The translations under genes and the position numbers were made by a program. This document shows, piece by piece, positions 6,312 through 34,129 of a stretch of DNA of 64,000 nt. The stretch is from Arthrobacter sp. FB24 (lineage in GTDB: Bacteria; Actinomycetota; Actinomycetes; Actinomycetales; Micrococcaceae). The stretch lies in contig NC_008538.1 in NCBI RefSeq assembly GCF_000196235.1, forward strand, positions 51,508 to 115,507, given 5' to 3'. The notes under the pieces are model-generated. The model was given only the letters and a program-made list of their open reading frames with translations, was not told the DNA's origin and did not search any database. Numbering within the stretch: the stretch's first letter is position 1; every line of letters starts with the position of its first letter.

Positions 6312-9300
6312 TCACACGGCGAGCTCGGGCAGGGCTCCGATGATCCGGTTGGATTCAAGGCTCAATGTCACGATCTTGGCAATTAGGTCGATGATGTAGC
6401 GCGGCTCCTGATGATCGCGGGACCAATCATTGGGGTCATTGACAATACCGGAGTCCTTGTCGGTCTTGACCCGGTACCTCTCTAGGATCCAATCCAAGGC
6501 GGAGCGCGAACCGAGCATGTACTCGTGGACCTCGACGGGAATGCCTTCAAGGGTGATATTTCCGTTGTAAATTATGCGGGTCTTATCCCACGATCCGGCC
6601 TTACCTTCGTACTTCATCTTGATCACTGCGTACCTGGTGTAGTCGTCGGCATCTAGCACCAAACCGGTATGACGTTCATTCAGCGGGAACGGGTCTAGGT
6701 CCTCGTAACCGATGTGCAGGGCTGCCAACTGCCGGCCGGCATCAGCGAACGCATGAAAGTCGTTGCCTGCTATTTTCGGAATGCGGGGGAGCATTCTCTT
6801 GAGGTCCGCGGCGAAGCGTTCACGGTAGTCGGGCGAGTGGAGGATGCCATAGACGTAGTAGAAGATGTCGTCTTTGCTCACGCACGATCCGTAAAACGTC
6901 CGATAATCGGCCAGGGCCGCGTCTGTCACGTTGTCGGTGCGCCCGTCCTCAGCGTCTAGCGGCGAGGCCGTAAGTTCCGATAACAAGTCGTCGCCATGAA
7001 CTGGTTTGGTGTACGAGTAGCGGGGGAAGAACTGGCCTCCGCTTCCGGCCCCAGTGACGTGGAGGTCCGGCACAAGATCGGTCATCAACACGCCAAACGG
7101 CACAGCCGAACCGTTCCCAACAATGTAGAAGCCAAAGTTATTTTCGCCGCTAGGTGGGAAGATCGATTCTAACTGGGACCATTCGTGGTTCATCTTGCGT
7201 TCGTAGTAAACGGCCTGCTTGTTGAACGGTCGATAAGTCGCAGTCCGAATAGCAGATTCCCTGTATTCCACTTCTTCATCCCTGGCGAGTGATTGGCGCA
7301 GGCTTCTAGTCCAGCTGATCTCCATTCCGTTCGAGTTCAGTCTGGGTGTCAATTGGCCCACTCGCGTCGCGAGCGTGCCCGTTTTCAGGCCGGGCTTGAT
7401 GGTGCTCCGGTCGGCCTCGTAGGCGGACACATGTCGATCAACGTTCTGGGCCATGGCTGACCGGCTGCTGTTGTAAACCCACGCATCTCGCCCGGTTTCG
7501 AGCCCCCGCGAGAAGATGTTGAAGATTCGAATTCCTTCTTTGGCCCGGGAGCCGATGGGCGTGAAAGTTTCGAAGATATCGTCTCGTTGGTTGATCCAGT
7601 CTCCCTCCACGTTAGGGGTAAGTCGTTCCCAGGGAATGGTGGCCAGGGTGGCTTCGTCGACGATGGCAAGTTTTTGCTTGCGGTCGAGGTAGTCACCGAT
7701 GTCCCGGTAATTGAGCCGGCATCCGGCCACAGCTCCGGGGCGCTTGACGAGCAGCAGAACGGCAACCGTCGTCTTGCTGCCTTCGCCAAAGACGTTGTCC
7801 TTTTCCTTCCGCCGTTGTTCCCCGGCACCCCGCGCGTTCCCACGCAGGTTGTAAACGTAGATCTCGTGAAACTCAGTCGTGAGAGTCTTGCGGAGTCCGT
7901 CGGCGGTGTTGCCGTCGATGTATCCCCCGTTGGAGACGTAACAAACCACTCCGCCGTGTTCGGAGTTCAGTACGCGATTGGAAGCCCAGCGGATGGCGCG
8001 GATATATGAGTCATAGAGGGAGTTCACATTCGTTGCCGTGGACTGTGCCACATAACTTCTGCGGATGGACTCGTCCAGGGTCGGGTATTTGAGGTTGGCG
8101 TTGTTGTCGTTGCCGCTGGATTGGCCGACGGAGTAAGGCGGGTTGCCGATGATCACCCGGATATCGAGAGCGTTCTGCTTGACCACGCGATCGTTATTGT
8201 TGGTGAAGACGTGTTCGTCAAGGGTGTCTCCGTCTTCCGTCATTTGGAAGGTGTCGGTGAGCACGATCCCCCCAAACGATTCATAGCCGACCGTGTCAGC
8301 GTCACGGCCCTGTTCGACGGCTTGTTCAGTGAGGATTCCGTGGAAGGTGGCCTCGATGTTGATCGCCGCGATGTAGTAGGCCATGAGCAGCAGCTCGTTG
8401 GCGTGCAGCTCCTGGGTGTACTTGCGCAGTAGGTCTTCGGGTTTGATCAGTCCTGACTGCAACAGGCGCACGACGAACGTCCCGGTCCCGGTGAACGGGT
8501 CGAGTACGTGGACGCCTTCATCGGAGATTGAAACCCCGAACTCTTTCTTCAATACGTCGTCGACGGCGCGCAGGATGAAATCGACGACTTCAACCGGCGT
8601 GTAAACGATTCCCAGTGATTCGGCGGTGCGGGGGAAAGCGAGCTTGAAGAACTTTTCGTAGAGCTCAGTGATGATCTTCTGCTTGCCGGCGGCCGTGCCC
8701 ACACCCTCGGCTTTCACCCGCACGGATCGGTAAAAGTCTTCGAGGTTCTGGACCTCCGAGTCAAGGTTGTACTGCTCGAGTACCAACACCATGGAGTCCA
8801 TGACCTGGGACACCGGGTTGTGAGCGGCGAAAGAATAGTCCTCGAACAACGCCTCGAACACGGGCTTGGTGATCAAGTGCTGGGAGAGCATGTCGATCGC
8901 GTCGGACTCGCTGATGGAGGCGTTCAGGTTCCCCCGCAGGCCCTCTAGGAAGCCAGCGAATTCGTCCCGCACCCGGGCATCAGGGCCATCGAGTATCGTA
9001 CGGATCCGGATGATGTGCCGGTCAGCAATGCCCTTGACGTCTTCGGCCCATTGTTCCCAGTAGCGGCGGTCCCCGACCTTGCGGACCATACGGGCGAAAA
9101 TCGCGTTACGCCACTCGTCCGCATTGGCCATATGGAACAACGCCTCGGGTCCCGGCCTATCCGAGGAACCGGGCATCTCACCCGGGCCGTCTCCTGGACC
9201 GAACGGGTCGGCAACGGTGATGATATCGATTTTGTCGTTCGTGTTGCCGTTCAGGTCCAGCTTGTTGATCATCGCTTCGAACCGGTCATCATGGGCCCGC

Positions 9301-11153
9301 AGTGCCTGGAGGACATCCCAGACGACCTTGTACTTCTTGTTGTCGTTCAGCGCGGTTTCCGGGTCTTCGGAGGCCGGAACCGCGATCGGCAGGATGATGT
9401 ACCCGTATTCCTTCCCTTCGGAGCGGCGCATGACACGGCCCACGGCCTGCACCACGTCGACCTGGGAGTTGCGGGGGTTCAGGAATAGCACCGCGTCCAA
9501 GGACGGGACGTCCACGCCTTCGGTGAGGCATTTGGCGTTGGACAGGATCCGGCACACGTTGCCCTTGGTTTCGTCCTGCAGCCAGTCCAGTTTCGCGGAG
9601 CGTTCGAGGACGTTGAACGTGCCGTCGACATGTTCGGCTTCCAGCTTCAACGCGTCGTCATCTTCGACCAGCAGTTGCCGGCCGATGAGTTCGAACTGTT
9701 CGGCCAGTTTCTTGGATTCCTTGATGTTCCGGGCGAACGCGACCGCCCTGTTCATAGGGGACGTATCTCCGATGGAGAGACGCTCGCCGTTGACGCCGCG
9801 CTTGGACAGGCCGTTCCAGCAGCCCACGATTCGGGCGGCGTCATCCAGGGACAGGTCTCCATTTTCTTGGAACAAGCCCTGGAAGGATCGGGACACCGCT
9901 TCCTCATTTACCGCCAGGACCAGGACCTTGTAATCGGAGAGGTGACCCATCTCTACGGCTTTACCGAAGCCCAGGTGGTGGAATTCCGGCCCGTAGACTG
10001 CGACATCATCCATGGAGTAAACGGCCACATCGTTCTCTGCCGCCTTCGCCTTCGAATCCTGCACATAGATCCGCGGCGTCGCCGTCATATACAGACGTTT
10101 CTTGGCGCGCAGGTAGGCCTGGTCGTGGACACGCACGAAGGCCGAGTCATCATGCTCCGCCTCCGTAATCCCCGTCGTCCGGTGTGCCTCATCGCAAAGG
10201 ATCACATCAAAGTCCGGCAGTCCGAGGGCCTGGGCCTGGGCGATGACGTCGATGGACTGGTAGGTAGAGAACACCACTGTGACCGCTTCCTGGCCGGTGC
10301 TGATGCTCGTCCGGTAGAAGAGTTTCTGCGGGTCCGTGGTGGCAGGGAACGCCAGATCGTGTACGGACACGTCCTCGTGTTCGCGGCGGCCGACCTTCGT
10401 GTCCGAACACACGGCCAGCGGCCGCAACGGAACGGTGGCCTGGGCCGTCCACTCGTTCAGCGTCTGCTGCAGCAGAGCTATGGAGGGCACCAGGAACAGG
10501 GCGGTACCGCCGACAGGAACCATTTCCTCGACGATCTTCAACGAGGTGTAGGTCTTGCCCGTGCCGCAAGCCATGATCAGCTTCCCGCGATCAGAGGTCT
10601 GAAATCCTGTGATCACATCGTCGATCGCATCGCGCTGATACTTGCGCGGTTCCTTACGATCGATCTGCCGCATTTCCTCGGGCCGGTCCAGATCAAACTC
10701 AGCCCAATCAATGGTCGAATCCGCCAGATCCTGCAGCCGCAACCTGGTCATCGGCTTCGACTGGCCCTCCAGTGCGGTTTCGGCGTGCTTGGACCACTTG
10801 TCCGTGGTGGAAACGACCAGACCGTAGGAGAAGTCGACCTTGCCGGCGGCCGTGAAAAAAGAATCGATGTGCTTCTTATCCAGTGTCCGTTGCGGATCAT
10901 AGAACTTACACTGGATCGCAGTCAGTTCCCCGGTGTAGCGGTCCTTCGCGACCAGATCGATCCCCGTATCCACCTGCCCTCTGCGGTCCGGCCACTCATC
11001 CCATAGCCACACATCGGAGAACTGATCCGAGTACTTGGGTTCCAACTGCAGATACCGCTTGAACAACCGCTCGAATTTCGTGCCCTTGTCCCGCTCATTT
11101 TTGGCGGAGAAATAGAGACGGTCGAGCAGCTGCTCGAAAGTGTTAGAACCCAT
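6312..11153 (-). CDS. Type ISP single-chain restriction-modification enzyme (nuclease-helicase-methyltransferase)
   Basis: About 1613 aa, close to the length of LlaGI/LlaBIII-type enzymes. Domain order is visible: an Mrr-like nuclease with D66 and the Q81-C82-K83 motif; a superfamily 2 helicase with Walker A CGTGKT (196-201), DEAH (321-324), TATP (357-360) and QAVGRVMR (569-576); a helical coupler; and an N6-adenine methyltransferase with DPFTGTGTF (885-893) and NPPY (1004-1007), followed by a target-recognition region. Such proteins methylate one strand of an asymmetric site and use ATP-driven translocation to cut unmodified foreign DNA. I chose ATG 11153; an upstream extension to 11732 would run through the oppositely oriented SRAP gene and is not credible. 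Start lies 63 bp from that divergent gene. All core motifs are intact, so it is probably active. Confidence 0.93.
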   Translation of the reverse strand: MGSNTFEQLLDRLYFSAKNERDKGTKFERLFKRYLQLEPKYSDQFSDVWLWDEWPDRRGQVDTGIDLVAKDRYTGELTAIQCKFYDPQRTLDKKHIDSFFTAAGKVDFSYGLVVSTTDKWSKHAETALEGQSKPMTRLRLQDLADSTIDWAEFDLDRPEEMRQIDRKEPRKYQRDAIDDVITGFQTSDRGKLIMACGTGKTYTSLKIVEEMVPVGGTALFLVPSIALLQQTLNEWTAQATVPLRPLAVCSDTKVGRREHEDVSVHDLAFPATTDPQKLFYRTSISTGQEAVTVVFSTYQSIDVIAQAQALGLPDFDVILCDEAHRTTGITEAEHDDSAFVRVHDQAYLRAKKRLYMTATPRIYVQDSKAKAAENDVAVYSMDDVAVYGPEFHHLGFGKAVEMGHLSDYKVLVLAVNEEAVSRSFQGLFQENGDLSLDDAARIVGCWNGLSKRGVNGERLSIGDTSPMNRAVAFARNIKESKKLAEQFELIGRQLLVEDDDALKLEAEHVDGTFNVLERSAKLDWLQDETKGNVCRILSNAKCLTEGVDVPSLDAVLFLNPRNSQVDVVQAVGRVMRRSEGKEYGYIILPIAVPASEDPETALNDNKKYKVVWDVLQALRAHDDRFEAMINKLDLNGNTNDKIDIITVADPFGPGDGPGEMPGSSDRPGPEALFHMANADEWRNAIFARMVRKVGDRRYWEQWAEDVKGIADRHIIRIRTILDGPDARVRDEFAGFLEGLRGNLNASISESDAIDMLSQHLITKPVFEALFEDYSFAAHNPVSQVMDSMVLVLEQYNLDSEVQNLEDFYRSVRVKAEGVGTAAGKQKIITELYEKFFKLAFPRTAESLGIVYTPVEVVDFILRAVDDVLKKEFGVSISDEGVHVLDPFTGTGTFVVRLLQSGLIKPEDLLRKYTQELHANELLLMAYYIAAINIEATFHGILTEQAVEQGRDADTVGYESFGGIVLTDTFQMTEDGDTLDEHVFTNNNDRVVKQNALDIRVIIGNPPYSVGQSSGNDNNANLKYPTLDESIRRSYVAQSTATNVNSLYDSYIRAIRWASNRVLNSEHGGVVCYVSNGGYIDGNTADGLRKTLTTEFHEIYVYNLRGNARGAGEQRRKEKDNVFGEGSKTTVAVLLLVKRPGAVAGCRLNYRDIGDYLDRKQKLAIVDEATLATIPWERLTPNVEGDWINQRDDIFETFTPIGSRAKEGIRIFNIFSRGLETGRDAWVYNSSRSAMAQNVDRHVSAYEADRSTIKPGLKTGTLATRVGQLTPRLNSNGMEISWTRSLRQSLARDEEVEYRESAIRTATYRPFNKQAVYYERKMNHEWSQLESIFPPSGENNFGFYIVGNGSAVPFGVLMTDLVPDLHVTGAGSGGQFFPRYSYTKPVHGDDLLSELTASPLDAEDGRTDNVTDAALADYRTFYGSCVSKDDIFYYVYGILHSPDYRERFAADLKRMLPRIPKIAGNDFHAFADAGRQLAALHIGYEDLDPFPLNERHTGLVLDADDYTRYAVIKMKYEGKAGSWDKTRIIYNGNITLEGIPVEVHEYMLGSRSALDWILERYRVKTDKDSGIVNDPNDWSRDHQEPRYIIDLIAKIVTLSLESNRIIGALPELAV

Positions 11154-11216
11154 GGGAACATCTTGCCCCACCCGGGTTGGCCTTCCGTTGAATGCGACGT
11201 GGGGCACAATGAATCC

Positions 11217-11921
11217 ATGTGCGGCAGATACGTGATGTCCAAGGCCACCGGGGACCTTCTCAGCCAGTTCGAGGCTAAGGAGATCGAAGGCAGCCCGCCG
11301 CCGCCCAGCTGGAACGTCGCTCCGACCCAGGACGTCCCCATCATCGCGGAACGCCTGGACGAGGGCGCCATGGATCGCCGGCTGTTGATCGCCCGCTGGG
11401 GTCTTGTTCCGTCCTGGGCCAAGGACATCAAGATCGGTTCGAAGCTGATCAACGCACGCAGCGAGTCGATCCTGGACAAGCCCTCGTTCCGCAAGGCTGC
11501 CGTCAAACGTCGGGCGCTGGTCCCGGCGGAGGGATATTACGAGTGGCAGAAGACCGAGGACGGGAAGAAGATCCCGAATTACCTCTACTCCGAAAATGAG
11601 AATGTGCTCGCCTTCGCCGGGCTGTATGAGTTCTGGCCGGACCCGTCCCTTCCCGAAGATGACCCACACCGGTGGCTGCTCAGCTGCACCGTCCTGACCA
11701 CGACGGCGCATGACTCCCTCGGGCACGTCCATGACCGGGCACCCGTCATCATTCCGCCAGGCATGTATGCCCAGTGGCTGGACCCCGACACGACGGACAA
11801 GGAAAAGGTGCAGGAGATCCTCGACGCCATCCCTGAACCGGTTCTGACGCCCCGGGTGGTCACCGACCGGGTCAACAGCGTGCGGAACAACGGCCCGGAA
11901 CTTATCGAGCCGGCCCCCTAA
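11217..11921 (+). CDS. SRAP (HMCES/YedK) family abasic-site DNA-protein crosslink protein
   Basis: The start ATG 11217 gives Met-Cys-Gly-Arg, placing the catalytic cysteine at position 2, as required in this family, in which Cys2 is exposed after methionine removal and bonds covalently to abasic sites in single-stranded DNA. Further hallmarks are WNVAPTQDVPII, RWGLVPSWAKD, NARSES, PAEGYYEW and the HDRAPVII segment with the active-site histidine. It is 234 aa, normal length. The gene diverges from the type ISP gene with only 63 bp between starts, so promoters are shared. It acts in the cytoplasm in protection or repair of abasic sites. The proximity of a translocating restriction enzyme may be accidental. 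Confidence 0.96.
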   Translation: MCGRYVMSKATGDLLSQFEAKEIEGSPPPPSWNVAPTQDVPIIAERLDEGAMDRRLLIARWGLVPSWAKDIKIGSKLINARSESILDKPSFRKAAVKRRALVPAEGYYEWQKTEDGKKIPNYLYSENENVLAFAGLYEFWPDPSLPEDDPHRWLLSCTVLTTTAHDSLGHVHDRAPVIIPPGMYAQWLDPDTTDKEKVQEILDAIPEPVLTPRVVTDRVNSVRNNGPELIEPAP

Positions 11922-14818: not shown

Positions 14819-15161
14819 ATCTCCTCTTAGTAACCGGGTAGTCGAAGTCGTCGGACTCCGGGTTTTCCGCGATGGCAATATCCCTCAGGGCTTGTTCCTT
14901 TGTAACCTCTTGCCCCTGGGGATCCAGCAACGCCCAACGAAAGACCGGATCCGGGCCGGGCTGAACGACCCGCCGCACCCAACGGTAGCCGTGCTCTTTG
15001 AGCTTTTCCTTGTCGTCCCGGAACTGCTTGTCCTTTTCGATGGCCCGCTGCACCCTGGTTGCCGCGGATCAATCGGCGACGCACCGGCTGCAGACGTGCC
15101 GGCGGCCGTCGGCGCTGGGATCGACCATTTCCTTACAAGCTCCGCATCGTTTCAGCTCCAT
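14763..15161 (-). pseudogene. Zinc-ribbon protein gene interrupted by an in-frame TGA
   Basis: ATG 15161 begins MELKRCGACKEMV, followed by HVCSRCVAD: two C-x2-C pairs, a zinc ribbon. A TGA occurs at 15071-15069, and the same frame continues (SAATRVQRAIEKDKQFRDDKEKLKEHGYRW...) to a stop at 14763. Either the gene is a nonsense mutant, or it is split into a 30-aa zinc-ribbon peptide and a 96-aa protein starting at GTG 15053. The downstream part is well formed (VFRWALLDPQGQEVTKEQAL), so the one-codon explanation is preferred. Function unknown. Confidence 0.55.
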
Positions 15162-15234
15162 GCCCGCAAGCTACCAGAAGGGCCCGACGCTAGATGCTGG
15201 TCGGCTCTCTCGTGGCCGGGGCAGTGAAGGGCAG

Positions 15235-15648
15235 GCTCGCGGGGCTCGCCCTGGTTTCCGCTGCGCTCCAACCAGTTGAAGGGCGTCCGCTGGCGCGGCC
15301 GGCTGTTGGGTCCAGGGCGTGCCGTCGCAGAGCTCCGGACCCCCTGGCCCTGTGTGTCTACGACGCTTTTTGGCTGCTGTCCTGACGGATTGTACGTGTC
15401 CGCTCCGGCCCGTCTAGCCCCTCCTTCGTCGGGGCCTGCGGTTCAGGAAATGTCCCTGCGGCGCTCCTTCGTCGCTGATTTCCTCCGGGAATTTCCCGCC
15501 CCTTGCCCTGCGGGTAGACAGGCCTCCGTCGACCACAGCTCCGCAAGCTTCGCCAGCAGCCAAAAACAACGGGGGGAGAGGGGACGCTGGCCGGTCACCT
15601 AAGCCGCCCCACCCACCAACCCTTTCGGCAAAAAAGGAGCAACACCAC
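15235..15648 (+). repeat. Structured leader repeat, copy 1
   Basis: First of three long direct repeats that end at a ribosome binding site and ATG. The core (15281-15648) aligns with 16747-17096 and 18612-18976. It is closed by a 12-bp perfect inverted repeat, TTTTGGCTGCTG at 15368-15379 and its complement at 15554-15565, around nested weaker stems. The inner stem differs from copies 2 and 3 in both arms together (TCCC with GGGA instead of TCTTC with GAAGA). Downstream is the shared AACCCTTTCGGC and AAAAAAGGAGC site. Probably a promoter and folded 5' leader of the gene at 15649. Confidence 0.8.
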
Positions 15649-16080
15649 ATGAACGCAGTCACCAAGAGGACCGTGACCACCGTCGACACCGGCGAAACGG
15701 TCCACGATGTGCCCGTGCTCGTCGATTACCACATGAACGACGGCTACGACTGGATGGACGTCATTAGCGAACACGGCTGGGCCGTGATCCCCAGCTGGGG
15801 ATGTGATGGCTGGGACCTGGGCCAGTGGCCGTACGTCATGGTCGCCGCGATCCGTACCGCCGACGAGATCGGGAACCTGTTCGGCATGGCCACCTACTGC
15901 GAAGGCGACGTACGAACGACCTTCTATCGGACCAAGGCGAGGTTCTGGACCGCGATAAGTGAGCAGGCCTTCTTCCACTGGAAGAACGGACAGGCCCACG
16001 GCCCGGCAGACCTGCCCGAAGCCGCCGCCGAACTACCCAGCCGGTACCGGATGCCTTACGTCGTGCTGGACGCCGCCTAA
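15649..16080 (+). CDS. Hypothetical plasmid-type protein, 143 aa
   Basis: No family recognised. It is a soluble, acidic, tryptophan-rich protein (DYHMNDGYDWMDVI, WGCDGWDLGQWPYVM) without signal peptide. The start has an AAAAAAGGAGC ribosome binding site shared with the DUF4192 and ParB genes, because all three lie behind copies of the same leader repeat. This suggests the three are expressed together under one control. It is followed by the gene at 16158 after 77 bp. Confidence 0.75.
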   Translation: MNAVTKRTVTTVDTGETVHDVPVLVDYHMNDGYDWMDVISEHGWAVIPSWGCDGWDLGQWPYVMVAAIRTADEIGNLFGMATYCEGDVRTTFYRTKARFWTAISEQAFFHWKNGQAHGPADLPEAAAELPSRYRMPYVVLDAA

Positions 16081-16157
16081 CCAGCACTGACAACCGCTGT
16101 ACTGCCCGGCCGGAGCCGGGCAGTGCAGCGGCCAAACGACTTCAAAGGAGCTAGCAT

Positions 16158-16508
16158 ATGAGCAACGACACCACCGCCCCCAAGGGAATCACCGCCCTGA
16201 TCTACCGCGACGCCCTGGGTACGGACTTCTCGAACCGGGGCATCTCCGCCCGGGCTATGGAAGTAACCGTCATTGGCGAGGGCATCGACCCGGTTTTCGA
16301 GGCCACCGAGCAACGGCCCGCCGTCCGGCTCGTCAAAACTGAGACCTTCCACCGTGAGACCGTGATTCACGCCGAGCCGGTCATCCCGGAAGGTGAACCC
16401 GCACCGTGGTATATGTTCGGCGGCACGTTTATCTTCAGCAGTGACGCCAGGTTCCGCCGCGCAGCCGGACACTACGGAGCGGTCCCGCTGCACGACCGCC
16501 GCGAATAG
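16158..16508 (+). CDS. Hypothetical protein, 116 aa
   Basis: No family recognised. The start is well defined by CAAAGGAGCTAGCAT directly before ATG. The protein is soluble with alternating short strands (GITALIYRDALGTDF, AMEVTVIGEGIDPVFE, RPAVRLVKTETFH) and ends at HDRRE. It follows the 143-aa gene on the same strand and is probably cotranscribed with it; a GC-rich inverted repeat follows its stop. Confidence 0.7.
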   Translation: MSNDTTAPKGITALIYRDALGTDFSNRGISARAMEVTVIGEGIDPVFEATEQRPAVRLVKTETFHRETVIHAEPVIPEGEPAPWYMFGGTFIFSSDARFRRAAGHYGAVPLHDRRE

Positions 16509-16545
16509 GGCCGAGGGTGGCCGGTCTTTCGGGGCCGGTCACCGC

Positions 16546-16601
16546 GGGCGGTCCGCCGTCGTGGCCGGCTTTCGCTGGTGGTTGGCGGCGGCGGACCGCC
16601 C
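16546..16601. repeat. 13-bp inverted repeat GGGCGGTCCGCCG, copy 1
   Basis: Arms at 16546-16558 and 16589-16601 are exact complements with a 30-bp spacer. A matching element lies at 20417-20472, after parB, in inverse orientation. It may terminate transcription or be a partition or binding site. Confidence 0.6.
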
Positions 16602-16700
16602 ATCCCGCAGTAGCCAGGTGCCGGGGCGTCGGCCGTCGGCGGCAAGCCAAGGGTTGGCGGTGTCGTTGGGTTGTTCCTGGGCGCGTTGGTGAAAGAACAT

Positions 16701-17096
16701 GCTCGCTGGGCTCGCACTGGTTTGCGCTGCGCTTCAACCAGTTGATGGGCGTCCGCTGGCGCGGCCGGCTGTTGGGTCCAGTGCCGGCTCCGCCGTCCCT
16801 GGCCCTTTTGTGTCTACGACGTTTTGGCTGCTGTCCTGACGGATTGTACGTGCCCGTTCCGGCGCCTCTAGCCCCTCCTACGTCGGGGCCTGCGCCCCGG
16901 AAAGTCTTCTCCGGCGCTCCTTCGTCGCTTATTTCCTCCGAAGATTTTCCGGGTCTTGCCCTCACGGGTAGACGGGCCTGCACGGGCACAGCTCCGCAAG
17001 CTTCGCCAGCAGCCAAAACAACGGGGGAGAGGGGAGCTGGCCGGTCACTTGAACCGCCCCACCCACCAACCCTTTCGGCAAAAAAGGAGCAACACC
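16701..17096 (+). repeat. Structured leader repeat, copy 2
   Basis: Near-identical to copy 3 and recognisably related to copy 1; similarity to copy 1 begins about 46 bp further left (16701) than for copy 3. Closing stem 16822-16833 with 17007-17018. It leads into ATG 17097 through AAAAAAGGAGCAACACC. Confidence 0.85.
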
Positions 17097-18110
17097 ATGA
17101 ACGACTTCATCAAATTCACCGGCCCGGCCGACGTCCTGGCCTTCATTCCGCACACGCTGGGACAGACCCCCACGGAATCCTTTGTCGCCCTGACCATGCA
17201 GGGCAACAAGATCGGCGCGACCCTGCGGGTGGATGCCCCGTTCGGGCAGGATCCCGTTGGTTACGCCCAAACCATCGTCAGCTACCTGACCGCTGACGAG
17301 GCCGCCACCGGCAGCCTGCTGGTCATCTACACCGACGAGAGCACGACCGACGGCAGCAGCCCCTACGCTGGGCACGTGCAGGCCCTGAGCACCGAACTGG
17401 AAACCGCCGGGATGCCCCTGCAGGACGCATGGCTGGTGACCTCTGAATTGTGGCGGAACTACCACTGCACGGACACCGGCTGCTGCCCCGACCAGCCGCT
17501 GGATGCCATCACCACCAGCAACGGCAACGCCGCCCTGATCTACCGAGGGAGCGCCGTGACCGGCTTCATCGCACCGGCACCCTTCACCGGAGACGAGACG
17601 GCCCGCGAGGCTATCACCGCGCGCAAGCCTGACGGCTGGCCGGAAGACCTCGAAGCCAGCCGTGCTGCCTGGGCCAGGGTGCTGAAGGACCCCAAGAGCC
17701 TAACGACCGAGACCGCGTACCAGCTGGCAGGAGCGTTGCAGCACCCCACCATCCGGGACTACATGATGGGCGACATCGTCCCGCACGCGCCCGAGCAGTT
17801 CACCTCCGTCATGCTGGGTGTGTTCCCCACCCGCCCCGACTGGGCGCGCGTGGACACGGCACAGGAAGTCGCGTTCGAGCTGATGAAAGCCACCCCGGAA
17901 GGGCAGCGCGCCCCCATGTTGTGCCTGATCGGCTGGCTCGAATGGCTCAAAGGACAATCCAGCTTCGCCGCCCGGTACTTCAAGCTCGCCCTGGAGGACA
18001 CCGCCGGGTACCGGCTGGCGGAACTGCTGGACGAACTGGTCAACCGCGGCCTGCTGGCAGACTGCAGCCGGGACCGGAAAAAGGCCTATGACCGCCGCCT
18101 GAAGCGCTAG
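17097..18110 (+). CDS. DUF4192 family protein
   Basis: The N-terminus FTGPADVLAFIPHTLGQTPTES followed by FVALTMQGNKIGATLRVDAP is diagnostic of DUF4192, a family common in actinobacterial chromosomes and plasmids. Length is 337 aa, normal. Later features include HLLVIYTDES, a substrate-like pocket region with cysteines (TDTGCCPDQP), and a helical C-terminal part with tetratricopeptide-like spacing (LIGWLEWLKGQSSFAARYFKLAL). Biochemical function is not established. ATG 17097 follows a strong ribosome binding site at the end of leader copy 2; an upstream extension would run into the leader. A hairpin terminator follows at 18118. Confidence 0.92.
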   Translation: MNDFIKFTGPADVLAFIPHTLGQTPTESFVALTMQGNKIGATLRVDAPFGQDPVGYAQTIVSYLTADEAATGSLLVIYTDESTTDGSSPYAGHVQALSTELETAGMPLQDAWLVTSELWRNYHCTDTGCCPDQPLDAITTSNGNAALIYRGSAVTGFIAPAPFTGDETAREAITARKPDGWPEDLEASRAAWARVLKDPKSLTTETAYQLAGALQHPTIRDYMMGDIVPHAPEQFTSVMLGVFPTRPDWARVDTAQEVAFELMKATPEGQRAPMLCLIGWLEWLKGQSSFAARYFKLALEDTAGYRLAELLDELVNRGLLADCSRDRKKAYDRRLKR

Positions 18111-18117
18111 CTTCGAC

Positions 18118-18152
18118 AGGGCCGGACTCCACTACAAGAAGGGTCCGGCCCT
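18118..18152 (+). terminator. Hairpin terminator after the DUF4192 gene
   Basis: Perfect 9-bp stem, AGGGCCGGA at 18118-18126 with TCCGGCCCT at 18144-18152, eight bases after the stop codon. T-run is weak. Confidence 0.7.
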
Positions 18153-18308
18153 CCCCGCGGGATCTTCGCCAGGTGCGCGGCGGCCTCCCCCGCTTCGCTC
18201 CGCCGGCCGCGTAAACGCTGCGCGGGCGCCGCGACTTCAGCCGGCGCGCAGGAACTGCCGATACTGTGAAAGGACACCGCCGTCCCGTCCAGCCAAGGAG
18301 TCCCGAGC

Positions 18309-18461
18309 GTGGCAGATCAATTCCGCATGACCGAAGACGATACCGTTGCCCCGGACGCGAGCCCCCTTGAAGACATCCTGGAACTGAGCCTGCTCACCGC
18401 AGGCCCAGCCACCGGACCAGTAGACCGGCCAAGGAAAGACCACCGACACTACGAGCAGTAA
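18309..18461 (+). CDS. Small acidic peptide, 50 aa
   Basis: GTG 18309 is preceded by AAGGAG with 9-nt spacing, and the frame runs 50 codons to TAA at 18461. The peptide is acidic at the N-terminus (FRMTEDDTVAPDASPLEDIL) and basic at the end (DRPRKDHRHYEQ). No family recognised. A two-hairpin terminator element begins 28 bp downstream, giving a complete small transcription unit between the DUF4192 and ParB genes. Confidence 0.5.
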   Translation: MADQFRMTEDDTVAPDASPLEDILELSLLTAGPATGPVDRPRKDHRHYEQ

Positions 18462-18488
18462 ACCCAAGCAGCACTGACGCTGCACCAC

Positions 18489-18548
18489 AGATTTCCTTAT
18501 TGCCGAGGGAAATTCAGGAAGCCGGCACGGACAGTGCCGGCCTTCCTT
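18489..18548 (+). terminator. Two-hairpin terminator element, copy B
   Basis: AGATTTCCTTATTGCCGAGGGAAA-like block followed by a GC-rich hairpin (18517-18545, one bulge). Shares CACAGATTTC and CAGGAA context with copy A at 306. Confidence 0.7.
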
Positions 18549-18611
18549 CATGTGCGCAGCATGTAGCTGTGGACCGGGGGAGTGGGTGTTCGCCAGGGCT
18601 CACACCGATAA

Positions 18612-18976
18612 GGGCGTCCGCTGGCGCGGCCGGCTGTTGGGTCCAGTGCCGGCTCCGCAGGGCTCCGCCGTCCCTGGCCCTGTGTTGTCTGCGACGTTTT
18701 TTGGCTGCTGTCCTGACGGATTGTACGTGCCCGTTCCGGCCCGTCTAGCCCCTCCTTCGTCGGGGCCTGCGCCCCGGAAAGTCTTCTCCGGCGCTCCTTC
18801 GTCGCTTATTTCCTCCGAAGATTTTCCGGGTCTTGCCCTCACGGGTAGACGGGCCTGCACGGGCACAGCTCCGCAAGCTTCGCCAGCAGCCAAAACAACG
18901 GGGGGAGAGGGGAGCTGGCCGGTCACCTAAGCCGCCCCACCCACCAACCCTTTCGGCAAAAAAGGAGCCACACCAC
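18612..18976 (+). repeat. Structured leader repeat, copy 3
   Basis: Closing stem TTTTGGCTGCTG at 18699-18710 with 18884-18895. Middle stem 18727-18745 with 18848-18866 pairs at 17 of 19 positions. Inner stem 18773-18791 with 18812-18830. The leader ends at AAAAAAGGAGCCACACCAC before ATG 18977 of parB. Small indels between copies break every reading frame, so the conservation is of nucleic acid, not protein. Confidence 0.85.
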
Positions 18977-20332
18977 ATGAACGCAACACCCACGCTTGAA
19001 ATGCTCGACCCGGCCACGCTGACCGTCGACGTTAACGTCCGTAAGGACGCCGCCCTGACACCCGATTTCATTGCCAGCATCAAAGAACATGGCGTGATGG
19101 AACCGGTGATCGCCCACCGCAAGGACGACGGCACCGTGCACGTGCTGATGGGCCAGCGCCGCACCCGCGCCGCCGTGGAAGCGCAGCGGCCTCTGATCCC
19201 GGTGATGATCATCGACAGCCCCGAGGAAGCCGAACGTATCGTGACTCAGGTGGTGGAAAACATCCAGCGCGCTGAACTGACCGAAGCGGACGAAGCCGAC
19301 GCCTACCACCAACTGTCCCTGATCGGCGTCTCGGCCACCGCGATCGCCAAGAAGACCGGGCGCACCAAGACAACGGTGGAGTCCGCATTGAAGGTCAAGT
19401 CCTCCGACGCGGGAGCCGCCGCCCTGCGCAAAGGATGGACCATCGAAGAGGCGCTAATCATGGCTGAGTTTGAGTCAGATGAAGAGGCCACGGAGGAGCT
19501 CGAATCGGTCATCATGGACGAACCTGACCAGCTTCTGCACGTCGCGCAGCGGCTGCGAGACCGGCGCGAAAGCGCCGCCGCCCTCGCGGCGCTGATCGCC
19601 GACCTGGAAGCCCAGGGCAAGACCATCGTGGAGGATGCCGGACACTACGCCGACGACGACAACCTCTACGTCACCGCCGCCAAACGGGAGGACGGGGAAC
19701 CAGCCACCGAGGACGACGCCAACGCCGTTCTGATCACCACGGACTACCGGGGCCAGCACCGGACCCACTCCGTGATCGCGGGGTGGAAGGAGACGGGCTT
19801 CGCACCGAAGTACGAACGCTACGACGGCGGCCGCCCAGCGCAGAAAGGCCCCATGACCGAGGAGCAAAAGGCCGAGCGCAAAACCCTGATTGAGAACAAT
19901 AAAGCGATGCTGTCCGCGCAGGTGGTACGCCGTGAATTCGTGACCGGCCTGCTGTCGAAGAAGCAGCCACCGAAGGGCTGGCAGTACTTCACCGTCCACG
20001 CGATCACCCACCATCCGGAAACGGCCAGCGGTTACGACGGCGAGGTGGCCGCGGGAATGGTCGGGGCGAAGGTTGACGAGCCGAAGACCTGGGCGTGGAA
20101 CCCGCTCCGCACGCACGTGGCGAAATCCACCGCACGGCCTGAATTCTCCCTGATCGCACTGATCTGCGCGGGGTATGAGAAGACGGTCGCAAAGGACTCG
20201 TGGCGGTCCCCCTCCCAGACTCACAGGGACTACCTGAACCAACTGGTTCTTTGGGGATACAAGGCATCAACTGTTGAACAGCTGATCATCGACAGCGACA
20301 AGCCAGCCGAGGAAGAAATCCAAGCGGCCTAA
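18977..20332 (+). CDS. parB: ParB/RepB/Spo0J family partition protein
   Basis: The N-terminal ParB nuclease-like domain is clear: VDVNVRKDAALTPDFIASI, GVMEPVIAHRKDDG and GQRRTRAAVEAQR, the arginine-rich ParB box, then VVENIQRAELTEADEADAY. A helix-turn-helix follows (SATAIAKKTGRTKTTVESAL). The C-terminal half (about 230-450) is specific to plasmid or conjugative-element ParB-like proteins. Length 451 aa. ATG 18977 follows the shared ribosome binding site at the end of leader copy 3. No parA is present beside it, so it may be an orphan regulator or partition protein. It binds DNA in the cytoplasm, probably with CTP, as the family does. Confidence 0.9.
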   Translation: MNATPTLEMLDPATLTVDVNVRKDAALTPDFIASIKEHGVMEPVIAHRKDDGTVHVLMGQRRTRAAVEAQRPLIPVMIIDSPEEAERIVTQVVENIQRAELTEADEADAYHQLSLIGVSATAIAKKTGRTKTTVESALKVKSSDAGAAALRKGWTIEEALIMAEFESDEEATEELESVIMDEPDQLLHVAQRLRDRRESAAALAALIADLEAQGKTIVEDAGHYADDDNLYVTAAKREDGEPATEDDANAVLITTDYRGQHRTHSVIAGWKETGFAPKYERYDGGRPAQKGPMTEEQKAERKTLIENNKAMLSAQVVRREFVTGLLSKKQPPKGWQYFTVHAITHHPETASGYDGEVAAGMVGAKVDEPKTWAWNPLRTHVAKSTARPEFSLIALICAGYEKTVAKDSWRSPSQTHRDYLNQLVLWGYKASTVEQLIIDSDKPAEEEIQAA

Positions 20333-21325: not shown

Positions 21326-21747
21326 AACTGTACCTTTCGCTTGCTCTATGCCGCGTTCCTTTCGGCACGCTTGCCGAAACTTGGCCGGTGAAGGAATTGG
21401 CCAGTTGGAGCGGCCGGACCGTGGAATACCGGAGCGGAGCGAGGATATGCCGCGAAAGCCGGCTGCGGAGACTTGCCAAGGAAGGACCGGGCAGTAGCCT
21501 CAACCAGCCGAAACGGAACGACGCAGTCGTTTTGAATAAGTCAGACGCGCAGCGTCCTGCAGGGCAGTGCCCAGGAACCACCCCAAGCGCCAAATGCGGG
21601 CGCGGGTGATTTTCCGGAGCAAGCTATTGGGTTATGTGCCATAACCCGCGTGTTGATCCGCGGCCTGCGGCCCTGGATGCGGCACACTCGTCAGTGTGGC
21701 CCGGAGATTCCGGGTCGCTGCGCTGGGCATTGGGGGAGGGGACCGGG
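21326..21747. other. 422-bp region upstream of mobC, candidate oriT
   Basis: No gene is supported. It contains two perfect hairpins, TTTCGGCA/TGCCGAAA at 21360-21379 and GGGTTAT/ATAACCC at 21629-21647, the second about 100 bp before mobC. Origins of transfer of MobC/relaxase systems usually lie here and carry such an inverted repeat beside the nick site. I could not match a known nick consensus, so the assignment is by position and structure. Confidence 0.45.
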
Positions 21748-22140
21748 ATGACTGAAGAGCCGAAGTCGCCACGCCGGATCTCCCGCCGCCGCCGCGCCAA
21801 CATTGACGGCGACACCCAGTACGTGCGGGTTTCGATGTCGGAGTTCGAACGCGCTCAGTTGAAGGTGCTGGAGGAACGGACCGGGCGCAGCCCGTCGGAG
21901 ATCCTTGTCAGCGCGGCCCTGTACGCGGAGAACTCGGAGTCGCTGGCCGAGCGGCGGGCGATGGCCGTGGAATTCATCGCGGCCCGCCGCTACCTCGCTG
22001 CCCTGTCAAACAACGTCAACCAGCTCGCCCGGCACGCGAACGCCACGGACGAATTCCCGGAAGCAGCCCGCACCGTTTTGACCCGGGTACGGGGGGTTGC
22101 TGACCGCATCAATACGATGCTGGATTCGATGGTGCGCTGA
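21748..22140 (+). CDS. mobC: MobC family relaxosome accessory protein
   Basis: The 130-aa protein has an N-terminal basic ribbon-helix-helix part (RISRRRRANIDGDTQYVRVSM, ERAQLKVLEERTGRSPSEIL) and the MobC signature ARRYLAALSNNVNQLARHAN near residues 75-95. MobC helps the relaxase nick oriT. ATG 21748 has a GGGGAGGGG-type site; a longer frame back to 21634 is not needed. Its stop overlaps the relaxase start (TGATG), showing translational coupling. Confidence 0.9.
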   Translation: MTEEPKSPRRISRRRRANIDGDTQYVRVSMSEFERAQLKVLEERTGRSPSEILVSAALYAENSESLAERRAMAVEFIAARRYLAALSNNVNQLARHANATDEFPEAARTVLTRVRGVADRINTMLDSMVR

Positions 22141-23699
22141 TGATTCCCAACATCACCAAGGGCACCCGCATGCACGGGCTCATCGCATACCTTGCCGGTC
22201 CCGGGCGGACGAACGAGCACACCGATCCGCACCTTGTCGCTGGCTCACCGTCGATCATGGCCTGGCACAACGACGATGAACTGAACGCCGATGCCGCCCA
22301 GGCCATTGCCAAGGAACTGGACCGGGCCAGGAGCGTCCTGGGCGTGGAGATTCCCGGCGGGCATGTCTGGCACTGCTCCCTTTCGCTGCGCGCCGAGGAA
22401 GGCGACCTTACGGACCAAAAGTGGGCTGAGATTGCGCAGGACTTCATGGACGAGATGGGGTTCACCGAAGCCAGCGGACGGGCGCCGGCCCAGTGGGTGG
22501 CGATCCGTCACGGCCACAGCAAAGCCGGGAACGACCACATCCACATCGCTGCCTCCATGGTCCGCGAGGACGGCACGAAGTGGAGCAGCTGGCGGGACTT
22601 CCCCCGGGCGCAACAAGCCGCCCGGGAGCTTGAGAAGAAGTACGGCCTGGAAGAACTTTCACCCACGCATTCCACCCGTGGGCTCCGGCCGGGAGAACGT
22701 GAAGCCTCCGAGCGGCGGGGAGCCCCGGAACCGGAACGCCGGTCCCTGGAACGCAAGGTCCGTGCCTGCGCGACGTCCGCCCAGGATGAGGCCGAATTCA
22801 TTCGACGACTGCGCCGTACCGGTGCCCTTGTCAGGCCGCGGTACGCGTCCGGACGTGACGATGTCGTGGTCGGCTACAGCGTGGCAGAACGTGCCCCCAA
22901 AGGTGGCCGGCCTGTTTGGTTCGGCGGCGGTCACCTCGCCAAAGACCTTGCCCTGCCCAAGCTCCGTGCCGAGTGGCCTGACATCCCACAAGGTGCCGCC
23001 GAGGCGGTCGCAGAATGGCAGGCAGCTGCACGTGGACGCCGCCCGGTCAAGATCGGCCGCGAAGCCCACGAACCGGACCTGCAAATGTGGGAGCAGTACA
23101 GCGACGAAGTTGCCCGGCTCCGCGAAACGCTACGCTCCGTCCCGCTGGACGATCACGCGACCTGGGCGCACGTTTCACGCGAGACATCCGGCGCCTTCGC
23201 AGCCTGGTCCACGGCAACCGAGGCAACGCCCGGACCACTCGCAGCAGCAGCTGACGAGCTGTCCAAGACAGCACAACTGCGGCGCTACCCAGTCCGCCCC
23301 ATCCGCAGCGCAGGACCATCTGCCCGCGGAGCCTCGCTCATGCTCATGGCAGCTTCGATGGGCGGCACCGGAACCGCCGCGCAGGCAATCATGCTGCGCC
23401 AGCTGCTCAACGTCGCCAAGGCCGTCCACGACATGCACAAGGCATCAAATGATCTGCGCAGAGCACGCCAGATCAGCCACATGGTCAAGCACCACCTGAG
23501 CCAGGTCTCTGCCGCACTACCCAGCGTCCCTGCGACCACGCCCACAGCGGATAGCGAAGCTGCCGCCGCGGTACGAGCGAGTGCAGCCGGTCAGGTTTCG
23601 GGTCGGTCCGCGGGCTCCGTGCTGCCGCCGAAATACGTGCAGGCACGCACCCACGCGAGCACCCGAAGCGGGAGTACCCGCCCAGACATTGAGAGATAA
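22140..23699 (+). CDS. mobA: Relaxase/mobilization nuclease
   Basis: 519 aa. The N-terminal relaxase domain has ITKGTRMHGLIAYLAG, WHCSLSLRAEEG with DLTDQKWAEIAQDFMDEMG, and RHGHSKAGNDHIHIAASMV, whose histidines near 124-135 form the metal-binding H-x-H motif. The catalytic tyrosine is expected in the N-terminal 20 residues (Y17). The C-terminal half is Ala/Arg-rich and probably couples to a transfer partner. Function: nicks oriT and pilots the strand during conjugal mobilization. It follows mobC directly. No type IV secretion genes are in the window, so it would need help from another element. Confidence 0.9.
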   Translation: MIPNITKGTRMHGLIAYLAGPGRTNEHTDPHLVAGSPSIMAWHNDDELNADAAQAIAKELDRARSVLGVEIPGGHVWHCSLSLRAEEGDLTDQKWAEIAQDFMDEMGFTEASGRAPAQWVAIRHGHSKAGNDHIHIAASMVREDGTKWSSWRDFPRAQQAARELEKKYGLEELSPTHSTRGLRPGEREASERRGAPEPERRSLERKVRACATSAQDEAEFIRRLRRTGALVRPRYASGRDDVVVGYSVAERAPKGGRPVWFGGGHLAKDLALPKLRAEWPDIPQGAAEAVAEWQAAARGRRPVKIGREAHEPDLQMWEQYSDEVARLRETLRSVPLDDHATWAHVSRETSGAFAAWSTATEATPGPLAAAADELSKTAQLRRYPVRPIRSAGPSARGASLMLMAASMGGTGTAAQAIMLRQLLNVAKAVHDMHKASNDLRRARQISHMVKHHLSQVSAALPSVPATTPTADSEAAAAVRASAAGQVSGRSAGSVLPPKYVQARTHASTRSGSTRPDIER

Positions 23700-24636: not shown

Positions 24637-25794
24637 ATGGACAGCGAATCAACGTCGGAGCGCCGGGATATCTACGCGGTCCTTGGTTCCCCTGACTCGC
24701 GCTTTCCCGTCGAAGCGCCGGCAGATCCGAAGGAAGCCCGCCGGCTGAAGGGCGGAAACAGTTTCTACTGCTCGACCGCACTTGGCGGGTGCGGAGGGGA
24801 ACTGACCTTTGCCATCGGCGACGTCAACATTCCCCACTTCAGGCACCAGGCGGGAAGCAGATGTTCACTGATCTCGTCCAAGACCCTGGCCGACCGCTAC
24901 ACCCACCTTGCCATCCAAGAAGCATTGCGGGCGTGGATCGAAACCATGCCGGGCTTCTCCTGCCGCCTTGAGGTCTCCATAGAAAGCGGACGCACGGACG
25001 TCCTGGTGACAGGTCCGTCCTTCGAGGTTGCCCTCGAAGTGCAGCGTTCAGCGCTGTCTGCCCGCAACGCCCTGGAACGGACGGCGGTCTACAGCCATAG
25101 AGCCAACGCAGTGCAATGGCTGTACGCATTCAGGGACATCGATGCCTACAAGGCGGAGCTTGCCGACCGCGGATGGAGCCTGAGGATCTGGTACGGGTGG
25201 GCCAAGAAGGAATGCAGGATCGGCGTCAGCTACGAAACCGAAACCGGCGCGGAGGTGGAAATAAAGGAAGCCGGCGGACCGCTGACAGACTGGGACATAT
25301 CCTTTCGTGGTTTGGACTCGGTCCACCTCCGCAAGGCAAAAGCGGCAGTGGAGCGCCTGAGAGCGACGGAGCGGGAGCGACGCCTGGAGCAGGCCAGGGA
25401 GGAGGCTGCCCGCGAAGCCGCGGAAAAAGCGCGTAAAGAGGCCGCGCGGCTCCGTCACATCGCAGACCAGAGAGCAGCGCACGAGTCTCTTCTCAGGGCC
25501 TTGCAGCACACCCCGGAGGGGCTGGAAAACAAATGGCCATCGTCGTGGCCCCAGCTTAAAGGCAGCCCGGGACAGGTCTCATGGGCAGAATCGATTCGTG
25601 CCCGGGCCGTCGCTTTGTTGCGTGAAGAATTGGTCGAGGAGTGGCTTCCCCAAGCCAGGGGAGTACCGGTTGCGCGGTGGCTGGCTTTACAATCATCGGC
25701 GGCATTCTGGATTCATTGCCGCTTCAATGACACCTTTGCTTTTGTTCAAGCGTACGAGCACCAATTCGGATCCCCGTGGCACCCCCAACGTTGA
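24637..25794 (+). CDS. Competence protein CoiA-like protein
   Basis: 385 aa with a CoiA-like plan: an N-terminal zinc-binding part (FYCSTALGGCGGELTF, HFRHQAGSRC), then THLAIQEALRAWIE, and a PD-(D/E)XK-type core with GRTDVLV and ALEVQRSALSARN (D and E-x-Q). The central NALERTAVYSHRANAVQWLY matches CoiA. The C-terminal third is a long helix (residues 230-280) and a tail. CoiA-family proteins are linked to DNA processing during transformation; in actinobacterial plasmids the role is unknown. No promoter is obvious, and the 131 bp before it hold no gene. Confidence 0.8.
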   Translation: MDSESTSERRDIYAVLGSPDSRFPVEAPADPKEARRLKGGNSFYCSTALGGCGGELTFAIGDVNIPHFRHQAGSRCSLISSKTLADRYTHLAIQEALRAWIETMPGFSCRLEVSIESGRTDVLVTGPSFEVALEVQRSALSARNALERTAVYSHRANAVQWLYAFRDIDAYKAELADRGWSLRIWYGWAKKECRIGVSYETETGAEVEIKEAGGPLTDWDISFRGLDSVHLRKAKAAVERLRATERERRLEQAREEAAREAAEKARKEAARLRHIADQRAAHESLLRALQHTPEGLENKWPSSWPQLKGSPGQVSWAESIRARAVALLREELVEEWLPQARGVPVARWLALQSSAAFWIHCRFNDTFAFVQAYEHQFGSPWHPQR

Positions 25795-29900: not shown

Positions 29901-30572
29901 TTTTCGCCTCACAGTTCCGTCGAAGTTTGTGCTCAAATCCTGAATCAATGATTCATTAAATGCATCATCAGCGCAAAACCGCAGGTCAGACGCTTGTGTC
30001 GGTCGCTCTGAGGATGGGCGTTGCAGCCGTCAGGAGCGCTTGGGCCGCGGCGCATCAAAGCCGTCAGGCCGCAAATTCCGCGGAATCTCAATGGAGTTAG
30101 AGAACTCCTTGCCGATCAGGGGGATCGGGGCGATTGATTCATCTGATGCAATACGCAGAGCACTAGTTGACATAATCTCCATTATCGGCGTTCCGAAAGC
30201 AATGAAAAGTAGGGGTGCCAAGACCGTCGCCCCGGCGTCGGTCGCTGAGTTGCCGTGCTTTGCGGAGCCAGGTGTCCCGGCGAGCTGCAGTAAGCGGCTG
30301 AAGAGGTAACACGATGTCGCCGCCCTGGGCGAATCACACCAAATTCCGTTTCATCATGCGCTGAAGTGCGGGAACCCCTTAATCCCGCGTTGCAGGCGCG
30401 CGCCGTGCTTCTTCGGCCGCTCCAGTGCGGCGCGCCGCCGCCGCACCGCTGCGAAGGCGGGCGTAGTCGTTCTGGCACTGCAATCGGTCCAGGCGCCGAC
30501 GGACCATTCGTCTATAAAGAGGAATACCAACAAATGGCCTTACCATTATACTGGTCGGAAGGAGGAGGCTGC
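29901..30572. other. 672-bp region between recombinase module and catabolic cluster 1
   Basis: No gene is supported. It holds two similar AT-rich strings, GAATCAATGATTCAT near 29941 and GATTGATTCATCTGATGC near 30132, that could be element ends, and the promoter and operator of the MFS gene (TATAAA at 30513, operator at 30534). A 63-codon minus-strand frame at 30030-30221 is open but has no recognisable product. Confidence 0.4.
30534..30546. promoter_or_regulatory. Predicted GntR operator, site 1
   Basis: ATGGCCTTACCAT fits the TGG-N-CTWACCA pattern also found at 32567 and, on the other strand, at 38843. It lies 27 bp before the MFS start and downstream of a TATAAA box, a position suited to repression. 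Confidence 0.6.
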
Positions 30573-32511: not shown

Positions 32512-32526
32512 GGCACGCCCCAGCCC

Positions 32527-32579
32527 TTGACAAACAAAGCCAAATCAAGGATGCTCATTATCACAAATGGTCTAACCAT
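32527..32579 (+). promoter_or_regulatory. Promoter and GntR operator of oxygenase operon
   Basis: TTGACA (32527-32532), a 17-bp spacer and GATGCT (32550-32555) make a sigma70-like promoter. ATGGTCTAACCAT at 32567-32579 is a perfect TGGT-CTA-ACCA dyad of the FadR/GntR type, just downstream of the -10 box. Confidence 0.7.
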
Positions 32580-32628
32580 TACGCGGTTGTAAACATTCCC
32601 GCGTGAAGATACGTCCCAGGAGTGATCA

Positions 32629-32826: not shown

Positions 32827-32828
32827 CC

Positions 32829-34082: not shown

Positions 34083-34129
34083 AGCCGGTCCTTTTCTTCC
34101 CGTTCCGTACACGAAAGTGAGTTTTCACG

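Follow-up and report, generated by a model that had tools for sequence, protein, structure and literature searches.

The 64,000-nt stretch of Arthrobacter sp. FB24 analysed here (contig NC_008538.1, positions 51,508 to 115,507; hereafter the window), which is part of a 115,507-base contig in a genome of four contigs, raises the question of why three genes each open directly behind a copy of the same long hairpin. The original prediction, made from the letters alone, took the repeat to be a candidate cis-acting RNA or DNA structure that co-regulates plasmid genes. Our answer, to which we give a probability of roughly 0.84, is that each copy is a single-stranded-DNA (ssDNA) promoter of the Frpo/ssi kind, situated in the leading region of a conjugative plasmid. 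Their most probable role is that of zygotic-induction promoters located in the leading regions of Micrococcaceae plasmids. Six features read directly in the DNA lead to this answer: a conserved fold, its covariation, its preference for one strand, a promoter motif within it, its placement before genes, and the direction of those genes toward an origin of transfer (oriT)-like motif and a relaxase gene.

Three repeats before three genes

Self-comparison bore out the three direct repeats, with block D1 spanning 206 nt and blocks D2-D5 covering the rest. Copies 2 and 3 are 99% alike across D1, copy 1 is set off by indels, the mean column identity in an alignment of the three is 90%, and the repeats measure roughly 365-420 bp. 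The perfect closing arms TTTTGGCTGCTG / CAGCAGCCAAAA are present in all three. The 197-198 bp by which these arms had been said to lie apart is the right figure for the whole span, arms included, and not for the gap. The inner stem does differ in concert in copy 1 when the copies are aligned (GTCCC/GGGA vs GTCTTC/GAAGA), and each copy closes, as had been described, with the ribosome binding site AAAAAAGGAG and an ATG (15649, 17097 and 18977). The products are a 143-aa protein without a Pfam match, a DUF4192 protein (9e-39) and a protein with a ParB_N domain (6.4e-10). A whole-genome search placed the element at only these three positions, its five other matches being shorter than 30 bases.

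A family of elements that end at gene starts

A search of other plasmids, which the original prediction had proposed, found homologues in 62 of 72,556 plasmid records, at 175 places altogether. These records come from Arthrobacter (35), Paenarthrobacter (16), Pseudarthrobacter (9) and Citricoccus (2), and the plasmids are typed as conjugative (43), mobilizable (10) or non-mobilizable (9). Stretches were fetched around 22 of the 62, picked for diversity, and a profile grown from the three window copies was run on these and on the window. It returned 71 matches, up to five per stretch, some of which are split pieces of one copy. All 71 lie on the plus, gene-sense strand, 22 of them by construction, since each stretch was turned by one match. 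Genome contigs were also scanned for the ParB-like protein, which gave 79 loci, turned by the ParB match; 71 of these hold the element, and all 153 matches within them fall on the ParB strand.

Placement is equally regular. Of the 55 ParB-like genes that have 400 bp of upstream DNA, 51 start where a copy of the element ends. Where a match reaches the 3' end of the model, an open reading frame (ORF) of at least 40 aa starts at its end in 62/63 plasmid cases and 122/125 genome-locus cases, a count from which partial matches (8/71 and 28/153) were excluded. A Shine-Dalgarno (SD)-like motif is found in 60/62 and 119/122 of the copies that end at ORF starts, and the median distance from hairpin end to ORF start is 84 nt. 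According to annotation, the genes behind the copies belong to the 143-aa family, DUF4192, DprA-like and ParB-like proteins, along with several further small hypotheticals; the Citricoccus copies are followed by one or two such hypotheticals and then by a glutaredoxin gene. The three Sinomonas and Tersicoccus copies, inspected singly, retain the design; we take both genera to be members of the Micrococcaceae. With one copy as the query, an order-level search over 396 genomes matched 10, four of which have only matches shorter than 50 bases; one of these four, with a match of 28 bases, is the only genome outside the family, and the search reaches near relatives only.

The same regularity bears on the possibility that the element is primarily an ssi priming site, at which RNA polymerase would prime the second strand on the folded strand, with the genes as bystanders. 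Frpo is described with both roles, its transcripts and those of ssi sites also priming second-strand synthesis (PMC7736820), and the minus-strand folding and promoter motif set out below would fit either function equally. Bystander genes would not, however, be expected to start so consistently at the element's end behind an SD-like motif, and several copies per plasmid seem beyond what priming by itself would need. We consider a primarily priming function quite unlikely, although a priming role is compatible with an ssDNA promoter and the two are not exclusive.

Two other readings were dropped. Integron attC-like arrays were set aside on account of the fixed distance upstream of genes with ribosome binding sites (no integrase search was made), and a functionless mobile element or repeat was rejected on account of that fixed placement and the covariation described next.

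The fold and the strand that forms it

Pairing is kept in the homologues on other plasmids, as the original prediction implied for a functional fold. Among 33 diverged copies, 24 of 44 pairs have changed on both sides; shuffling gives 13.8 on average, and none of 500 shuffles came up to the observed value. Paired cells make up 95.7% (84.8% when shuffled), and the covariation score is 0.343, compared with 0.143 for shuffled copies and at most 0.107 for slid ones.

Which strand folds can be read from the wobble pairs. We counted these over shared pairs, meaning those common to four consensus folds (both strands, each with RNA and DNA parameters). Over the 49 shared pairs (31 of these pairs covary) in 61 copies, 98 departures are G-T on the minus strand and 21 are G-T on the plus strand; in the 30 copies of less than 92% identity the figures are 51 and 9. 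The 33 hairpins of less than 90% identity, with 51 shared pairs, give 68 on the minus strand vs 17 on the plus, and for these hairpins both parameter sets favour folding of the minus strand.

These counts bear on the RNA half of the original prediction. In a cis-acting RNA leader, the plus transcript would carry the whole hairpin, which would control termination or translation downstream. A conserved, covarying fold just upstream of a ribosome binding site is what such a leader would show, the RNA of copy 3 folds better than its shuffles, and the fold predicted for plus RNA contains two near-constant G-U pairs on that strand (59/61 and 61/61 copies), because of which its own wobble count favours plus. 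In the shared pairs, however, the plus transcript would have A-C mismatches where the minus strand has G-T, so that A-C outnumbers G-U by the same 98 to 21 and 68 to 17. The RNA of copy 1 folds no better than its shuffles, and the z values of the three single sequences (0.78, -1.84 and -3.27 for copies 1, 2 and 3) are on their own poor evidence for a fold. Neither the window nor four further loci gave an Rfam match at gathering score, and two weak sub-threshold matches fall outside the hairpins. The plus strand also lacks a sigma-like promoter across 15000-19100, and none of 60 copies reaches 8/12 on that strand in either arm. What stands of the original prediction is a cis-acting structure that is conserved, covaries and is positioned to co-regulate plasmid genes; its RNA-leader half is not favoured, because of the minus-strand wobbles in the shared pairs and the promoter on the minus-strand left arm, and we regard it as very unlikely.

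A promoter motif in the left arm

The sigma-type scan of 15000-19100 reported two sites (shuffle mean 0.3), both on the minus strand and both in left arms, those of copies 1 and 3. These read TAGACG-16-TACAAT, and copy 2 reads TAGAGG-16-TACAAT. Across the family, the left arm on the minus strand carries TAGAC-N16-TAnnAT. Of 60 copies, 59 score 8/12 or better there and 45 score 9 or more (one of the 61 copies, without the right-arm motif, was omitted), whereas the control positions left plus, right plus and right minus gave 0/60 each at 8/12 or better, and 0.75% of 1200 shuffled left arms held such a site. One pattern fits 57 of the 61 copies (TACAAT 24, TAGAAT 20, TACGAT 5, TAAAAT 5 and three singles); the remaining four read CATAAT, and the scanned copy among them, in L016, has TTGACG 16 nt away. 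The 33 diverged copies never depart from A2, A5 and T6 of the -10 or from the CC behind it; T1 is kept in at least 90%, and positions 3-4 vary.

New copies, tested without needing the right arm (a version that did had dropped 15 of 96), carry the promoter in 89/96 cases, with 0 sites on left plus and 1 in the rest of the element. Among those of less than 92% global identity to every earlier copy the site is present in 32/37, the 37 being what global alignment left of 40 copies picked via BLAST pieces of at least 220 bases; below 88% identity it is present in 14/18, and below 85% in 10/13. Each of these identity-filtered sets has 0 sites on left plus and 1 elsewhere in the element.

The motif sits in a structure that could serve it. 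In the folded minus strand of 60 copies, the mean pairing probability is 0.88 for the -35, 0.31 for the -10 and 0.97 for the closing stem. Beside or after the -10 stands a CC-loop-GG mini-hairpin, with a GNA loop in 99 of 157 copies and a GNNA loop in 36 (135/157 together), loops described as forming very stable DNA mini-hairpins (PMC4686876). The -35/-10 points at the hairpin base, and an RNA begun there would be templated by the right arm and extend out into the gene. We would place the exact start site near the hairpin base or right closing arm; with a start predicted there, the hairpin would not be part of the RNA.

The same motif reads leftward on duplex DNA, and one could suppose an ordinary double-stranded promoter that makes antisense or upstream RNA, the inverted repeat serving some other end. 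Such a promoter would leave unexplained why the -35 covaries with a partner some 130 columns distant (helix 3) and why genes stand so regularly on its other side, and we consider it extremely unlikely. A left-arm promoter on the minus strand can drive the gene only when that strand is folded.

The ParB-like loci L125 (Actinotalea) and L127 (Cryobacterium) gave no match to the profile. On the L125 contig, from Actinotalea ferrariae, a large hairpin of unrelated sequence (L125:3521-4020) lies directly before a distant ParB-like gene; the promoter scan scores nothing in it at 8 or above, and it is possibly an analogue in another family. L127 has one 8/12 minus-strand site some 420 bases upstream of its ParB-like gene.

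The oriT-like motif and the predicted transferred strand

Genes for a MobC-like protein and a relaxase follow the ParB-like gene on the same strand. An alignment of the DNA before mobC from six plasmids contains an invariant CGGAGCAAGCT and, 3-4 nt further on, an inverted repeat with concerted changes in its two arms; in the window this repeat is GGGTTATG/CATAACCC. The core recurs in a seventh plasmid (L029), and core and repeat lie downstream of the elements on the plus strand in 7/7 plasmids where they were recognised. A search for the gapped pattern gives a single hit in the window and none in 100 shuffles. The bare 10-mer CGGAGCAAGC has extra occurrences without the repeat, once on plus in L018 and on minus in L010 and L016, and these were not counted as oriT. 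The seven plasmids that share the oriT-like core are of MOBP type, and the plasmid gene tables list coding genes only. The listed start of mobC overlaps the oriT repeat, and its real start may be further in.

By annotation or Pfam, mobC or a relaxase gene lies downstream on the plus strand in 9/9 stretches that show one; the other 14 of the 23 have no annotated mobC or relaxase within the fetched DNA. A MOBF relaxase takes the place of MobC/MOBP in L012, L016 and L023, and there the genes still point toward the relaxase, though no oriT was recognised in these three. Conjugative nic sites are described as being 3' of the hairpin in the strand that is cut (PMC4814116), by which rule the cut strand here would be minus, and the transferred 5' end would therefore lead leftward through the ParB-like, DUF4192 and 143-aa genes. 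On this analysis the transferred strand is predicted to be the minus strand, that is, the template of the genes.

A model for expression on entry

Put together, an ssDNA promoter would work here as follows. The minus strand would enter the recipient first, its 5' end coming from oriT at about 21.6 kb, so that the three copies arrive within about 6.3 kb of nic. While single-stranded, it would fold, the left arm acting as non-template strand (-35 TAGAC, 16 nt, -10 TAnnAT) and the right arm as template, with the -35 double-stranded and the -10 already open as a bubble. Vegetative RNA polymerase of the recipient would start near the hairpin base and read outward; after about 84 nt, which include a ribosome binding site, the transcripts would reach the 143-aa, DUF4192 and ParB-like genes. 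Synthesis of the second strand would do away with the hairpin and switch the promoter off. The expected outcome is an early burst of establishment proteins, their genes being the first to be read, before second-strand synthesis.

Several points count against this model. The wobble counts depend on the pairs chosen: over all pairs of the plus-RNA fold, G-T pairs number 146 on plus vs 100 on minus in the 61 copies, and 83 vs 71 in the 33 hairpins. That count is mixed because the plus-RNA fold adds near-constant G-U pairs on plus, and the shared-pair count is the fairer measure. The usual -35 is TAGAC where TTGAC would be expected, a 3-bp mini-hairpin can be closed by the final T of the -10, and in the duplex the left-arm promoter, which may be active there too, would face away from the gene. 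As a positive control, F plasmid Frpo1 and Frpo2 gave no site of at least 9 or at least 8 in the same scan, so the scan is not validated on the classic Frpo, to which the element also shows no similarity. The promoter rate falls with distance (the 14/18 and 10/13 above). Copies are related, and their counts are not independent events; 4 of the 55 ParB-like genes with enough upstream DNA have no copy at their start; and L012, L015 and L019 have no copy directly before a glutaredoxin-ssb pair. The nicked-strand assignment comes from a polarity rule and covers MOBP plasmids only. The nicked strand, transcription of ssDNA, timing of expression and roles of the proteins are what we infer.

Comparison with known leading-region systems

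We strongly predict that the element works like Frpo in anatomy and place, and we do not claim homologous membership. ssDNA promoters are described as experimentally shown for the Escherichia coli plasmids F and ColIb-P9, where F Frpo1 and Frpo2 are needed for early, transient expression (PMC9849209). As in Frpo1/Frpo2 of F and ssi2/ssi3 of ColIb-P9, long hairpins are repeated here before leading-region genes directed toward oriT. As in F, there is a single-stranded-DNA-binding (SSB) protein gene, and on the F map a ParB-family gene lies behind Frpo2, between ssb and psiB. The Frpo fold, too, is described as rebuilding -10 and -35 in a single strand (PMC9849209), and the template of the F leading genes is the transferred strand, as we infer it to be here. 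The differences are as plain. There is no sequence similarity to Frpo (nhmmer found none, and the best blastn E value among the matches listed is 0.23), the host is of the Micrococcaceae and not the Enterobacteriaceae, the hairpin is about 200 nt and not the 328 bp given for the Frpo region (PMC9024699), the scan picks up a sigma consensus here and not in Frpo, and the downstream set consists here of 143-aa, DUF4192, DprA-like and ParB-like genes.

Samuel et al. 2024 (PMC11541004) report 13,089 Frpo homologues in 6,006 elements, with further candidates Frpo' and Frpo*. Their anti-defence islands are bounded by oriT and, in many cases, by homologues of umuCD, of which 90.3% are not oriented for the T-strand. 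Likewise here, umuD or Y-family polymerase genes and an ATP-dependent ligase gene flank five islands on the opposite strand (L009, L012, L014, L024 and L028). The main text of that paper has 0 occurrences of 'Actino', 'DprA' and 'DUF4192', and the available text of a PLSDB BLAST survey with 18 Frpo sequences (PMC12826799) has 0 of 'Actino'. The EGeRS of the pLS20 family (PMC8708921) resemble the present elements as conserved repeats before establishment genes on a Gram-positive conjugative plasmid. They are argued in that paper not to be ssDNA promoters, having a promoter-less fold and a transferred strand that is the non-template strand; in contrast, the promoter lies inside the fold here, and the transferred strand is predicted to be the template.

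On balance we favour, with less assurance than for the window itself, a broader reading: that Actinomycetota plasmids of both MOBP and MOBF type carry a sequence-unrelated family of ssDNA promoters with a built-in pre-melted -10, which would be a bubble with mini-hairpins on both strands. It would drive an uncharacterised establishment set (143-aa protein, DUF4192, DprA-like, ParB-like), and zygotic induction would then have arisen more than once or be far older and wider than the enterobacterial Frpo. We found no report of an actinobacterial ssDNA promoter in open-access full text; subscription papers, preprints and supplements were outside that search. If true, the switching-on of plasmid genes before double-strandedness becomes testable in another phylum, and the Micrococcaceae gain a sequence signature for locating leading regions, oriT and establishment genes.

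Features of the window and neighbouring genes

Table 1. Hairpins, promoter motifs, transfer features and associated genes in the window (positions count from its first letter)
Feature	Position	Strand	Remark
Copy 1, hairpin of folded minus strand	15368..15565	-	whole repeat about 15227-15648; precedes 143-aa gene
Copy 1, closing arms	15368-15379/15554-15565
Copy 1, -10 TACAAT	15389..15394	-	4/6 bases unpaired in predicted fold
Copy 1, -35 TAGACG	15411..15416	-	16 nt from -10; pairs with right arm
143-aa gene after copy 1	15649..16080	+	no Pfam, PADLOC or PDB match
116-aa hypothetical, next gene on same strand	16158..16508	+	no Pfam or PADLOC match
Copy 2, hairpin of folded minus strand	16822..17018	-	whole repeat about 16693-17096
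Copy 2, closing arms	16822-16833/17007-17018
Copy 2, -10 TACAAT	16843..16848	-	read from sequence; copy 2 is among the 61 copies counted
Copy 2, -35 TAGAGG	16865..16870	-	weaker: 8/12, under limits of window scan
DUF4192 gene after copy 2	17097..18110	+	Pfam
Copy 3, hairpin of folded minus strand	18699..18895	-	whole repeat about 18612-18976
Copy 3, closing arms	18699-18710/18884-18895
Copy 3, -10 TACAAT	18720..18725	-	4/6 bases unpaired in predicted fold
Copy 3, -35 TAGACG	18742..18747	-	pairs with right arm
ParB-like gene (ParB_N domain) after copy 3	18977..20332	+	Pfam
Predicted oriT core: CGGAGCAAGCT, 3 nt, inverted repeat GGGTTATG/CATAACCC	21615..21647	-
Predicted nic	between 21619 and 21620	-	polarity rule (PMC4814116)
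MobC-like relaxosome gene	21634..22140	+	PF05713, 8.5e-6
Relaxase gene, MobA/VirD2-like nuclease domain	22140..23699	+	PF03432, 4.4e-18

The 143-aa protein has 115 relatives, of which most named ones are from Arthrobacter, Paenarthrobacter or Pseudarthrobacter and two bear Bacillales names. The sole PDB match of the DUF4192 protein is a weak one to a TPR protein (E 0.0047). From their position, both families are likely to be establishment or anti-defence proteins. A DprA-like gene behind a copy in L012 (17346-18251) matches PADLOC ShosA (1.1e-47) and Pfam DNA_processg_A (8.5e-63); this plasmid DprA may manage incoming ssDNA rather than act in defence.

Elsewhere in the window, a single-chain type ISP restriction-modification protein of 1806 aa (6312-11732, minus strand; PF18135, PF13156, PF22240) is encoded upstream of the leading region and in the opposite orientation to it, and a protein with a CoiA-like competence nuclease domain (24637-25794, plus strand) is encoded downstream of the relaxase. 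Further on, genes for an MFS transporter, a pyridine nucleotide reductase and a Rieske ring-hydroxylating oxygenase (30366-35647, plus strand) form a probable catabolic cluster.

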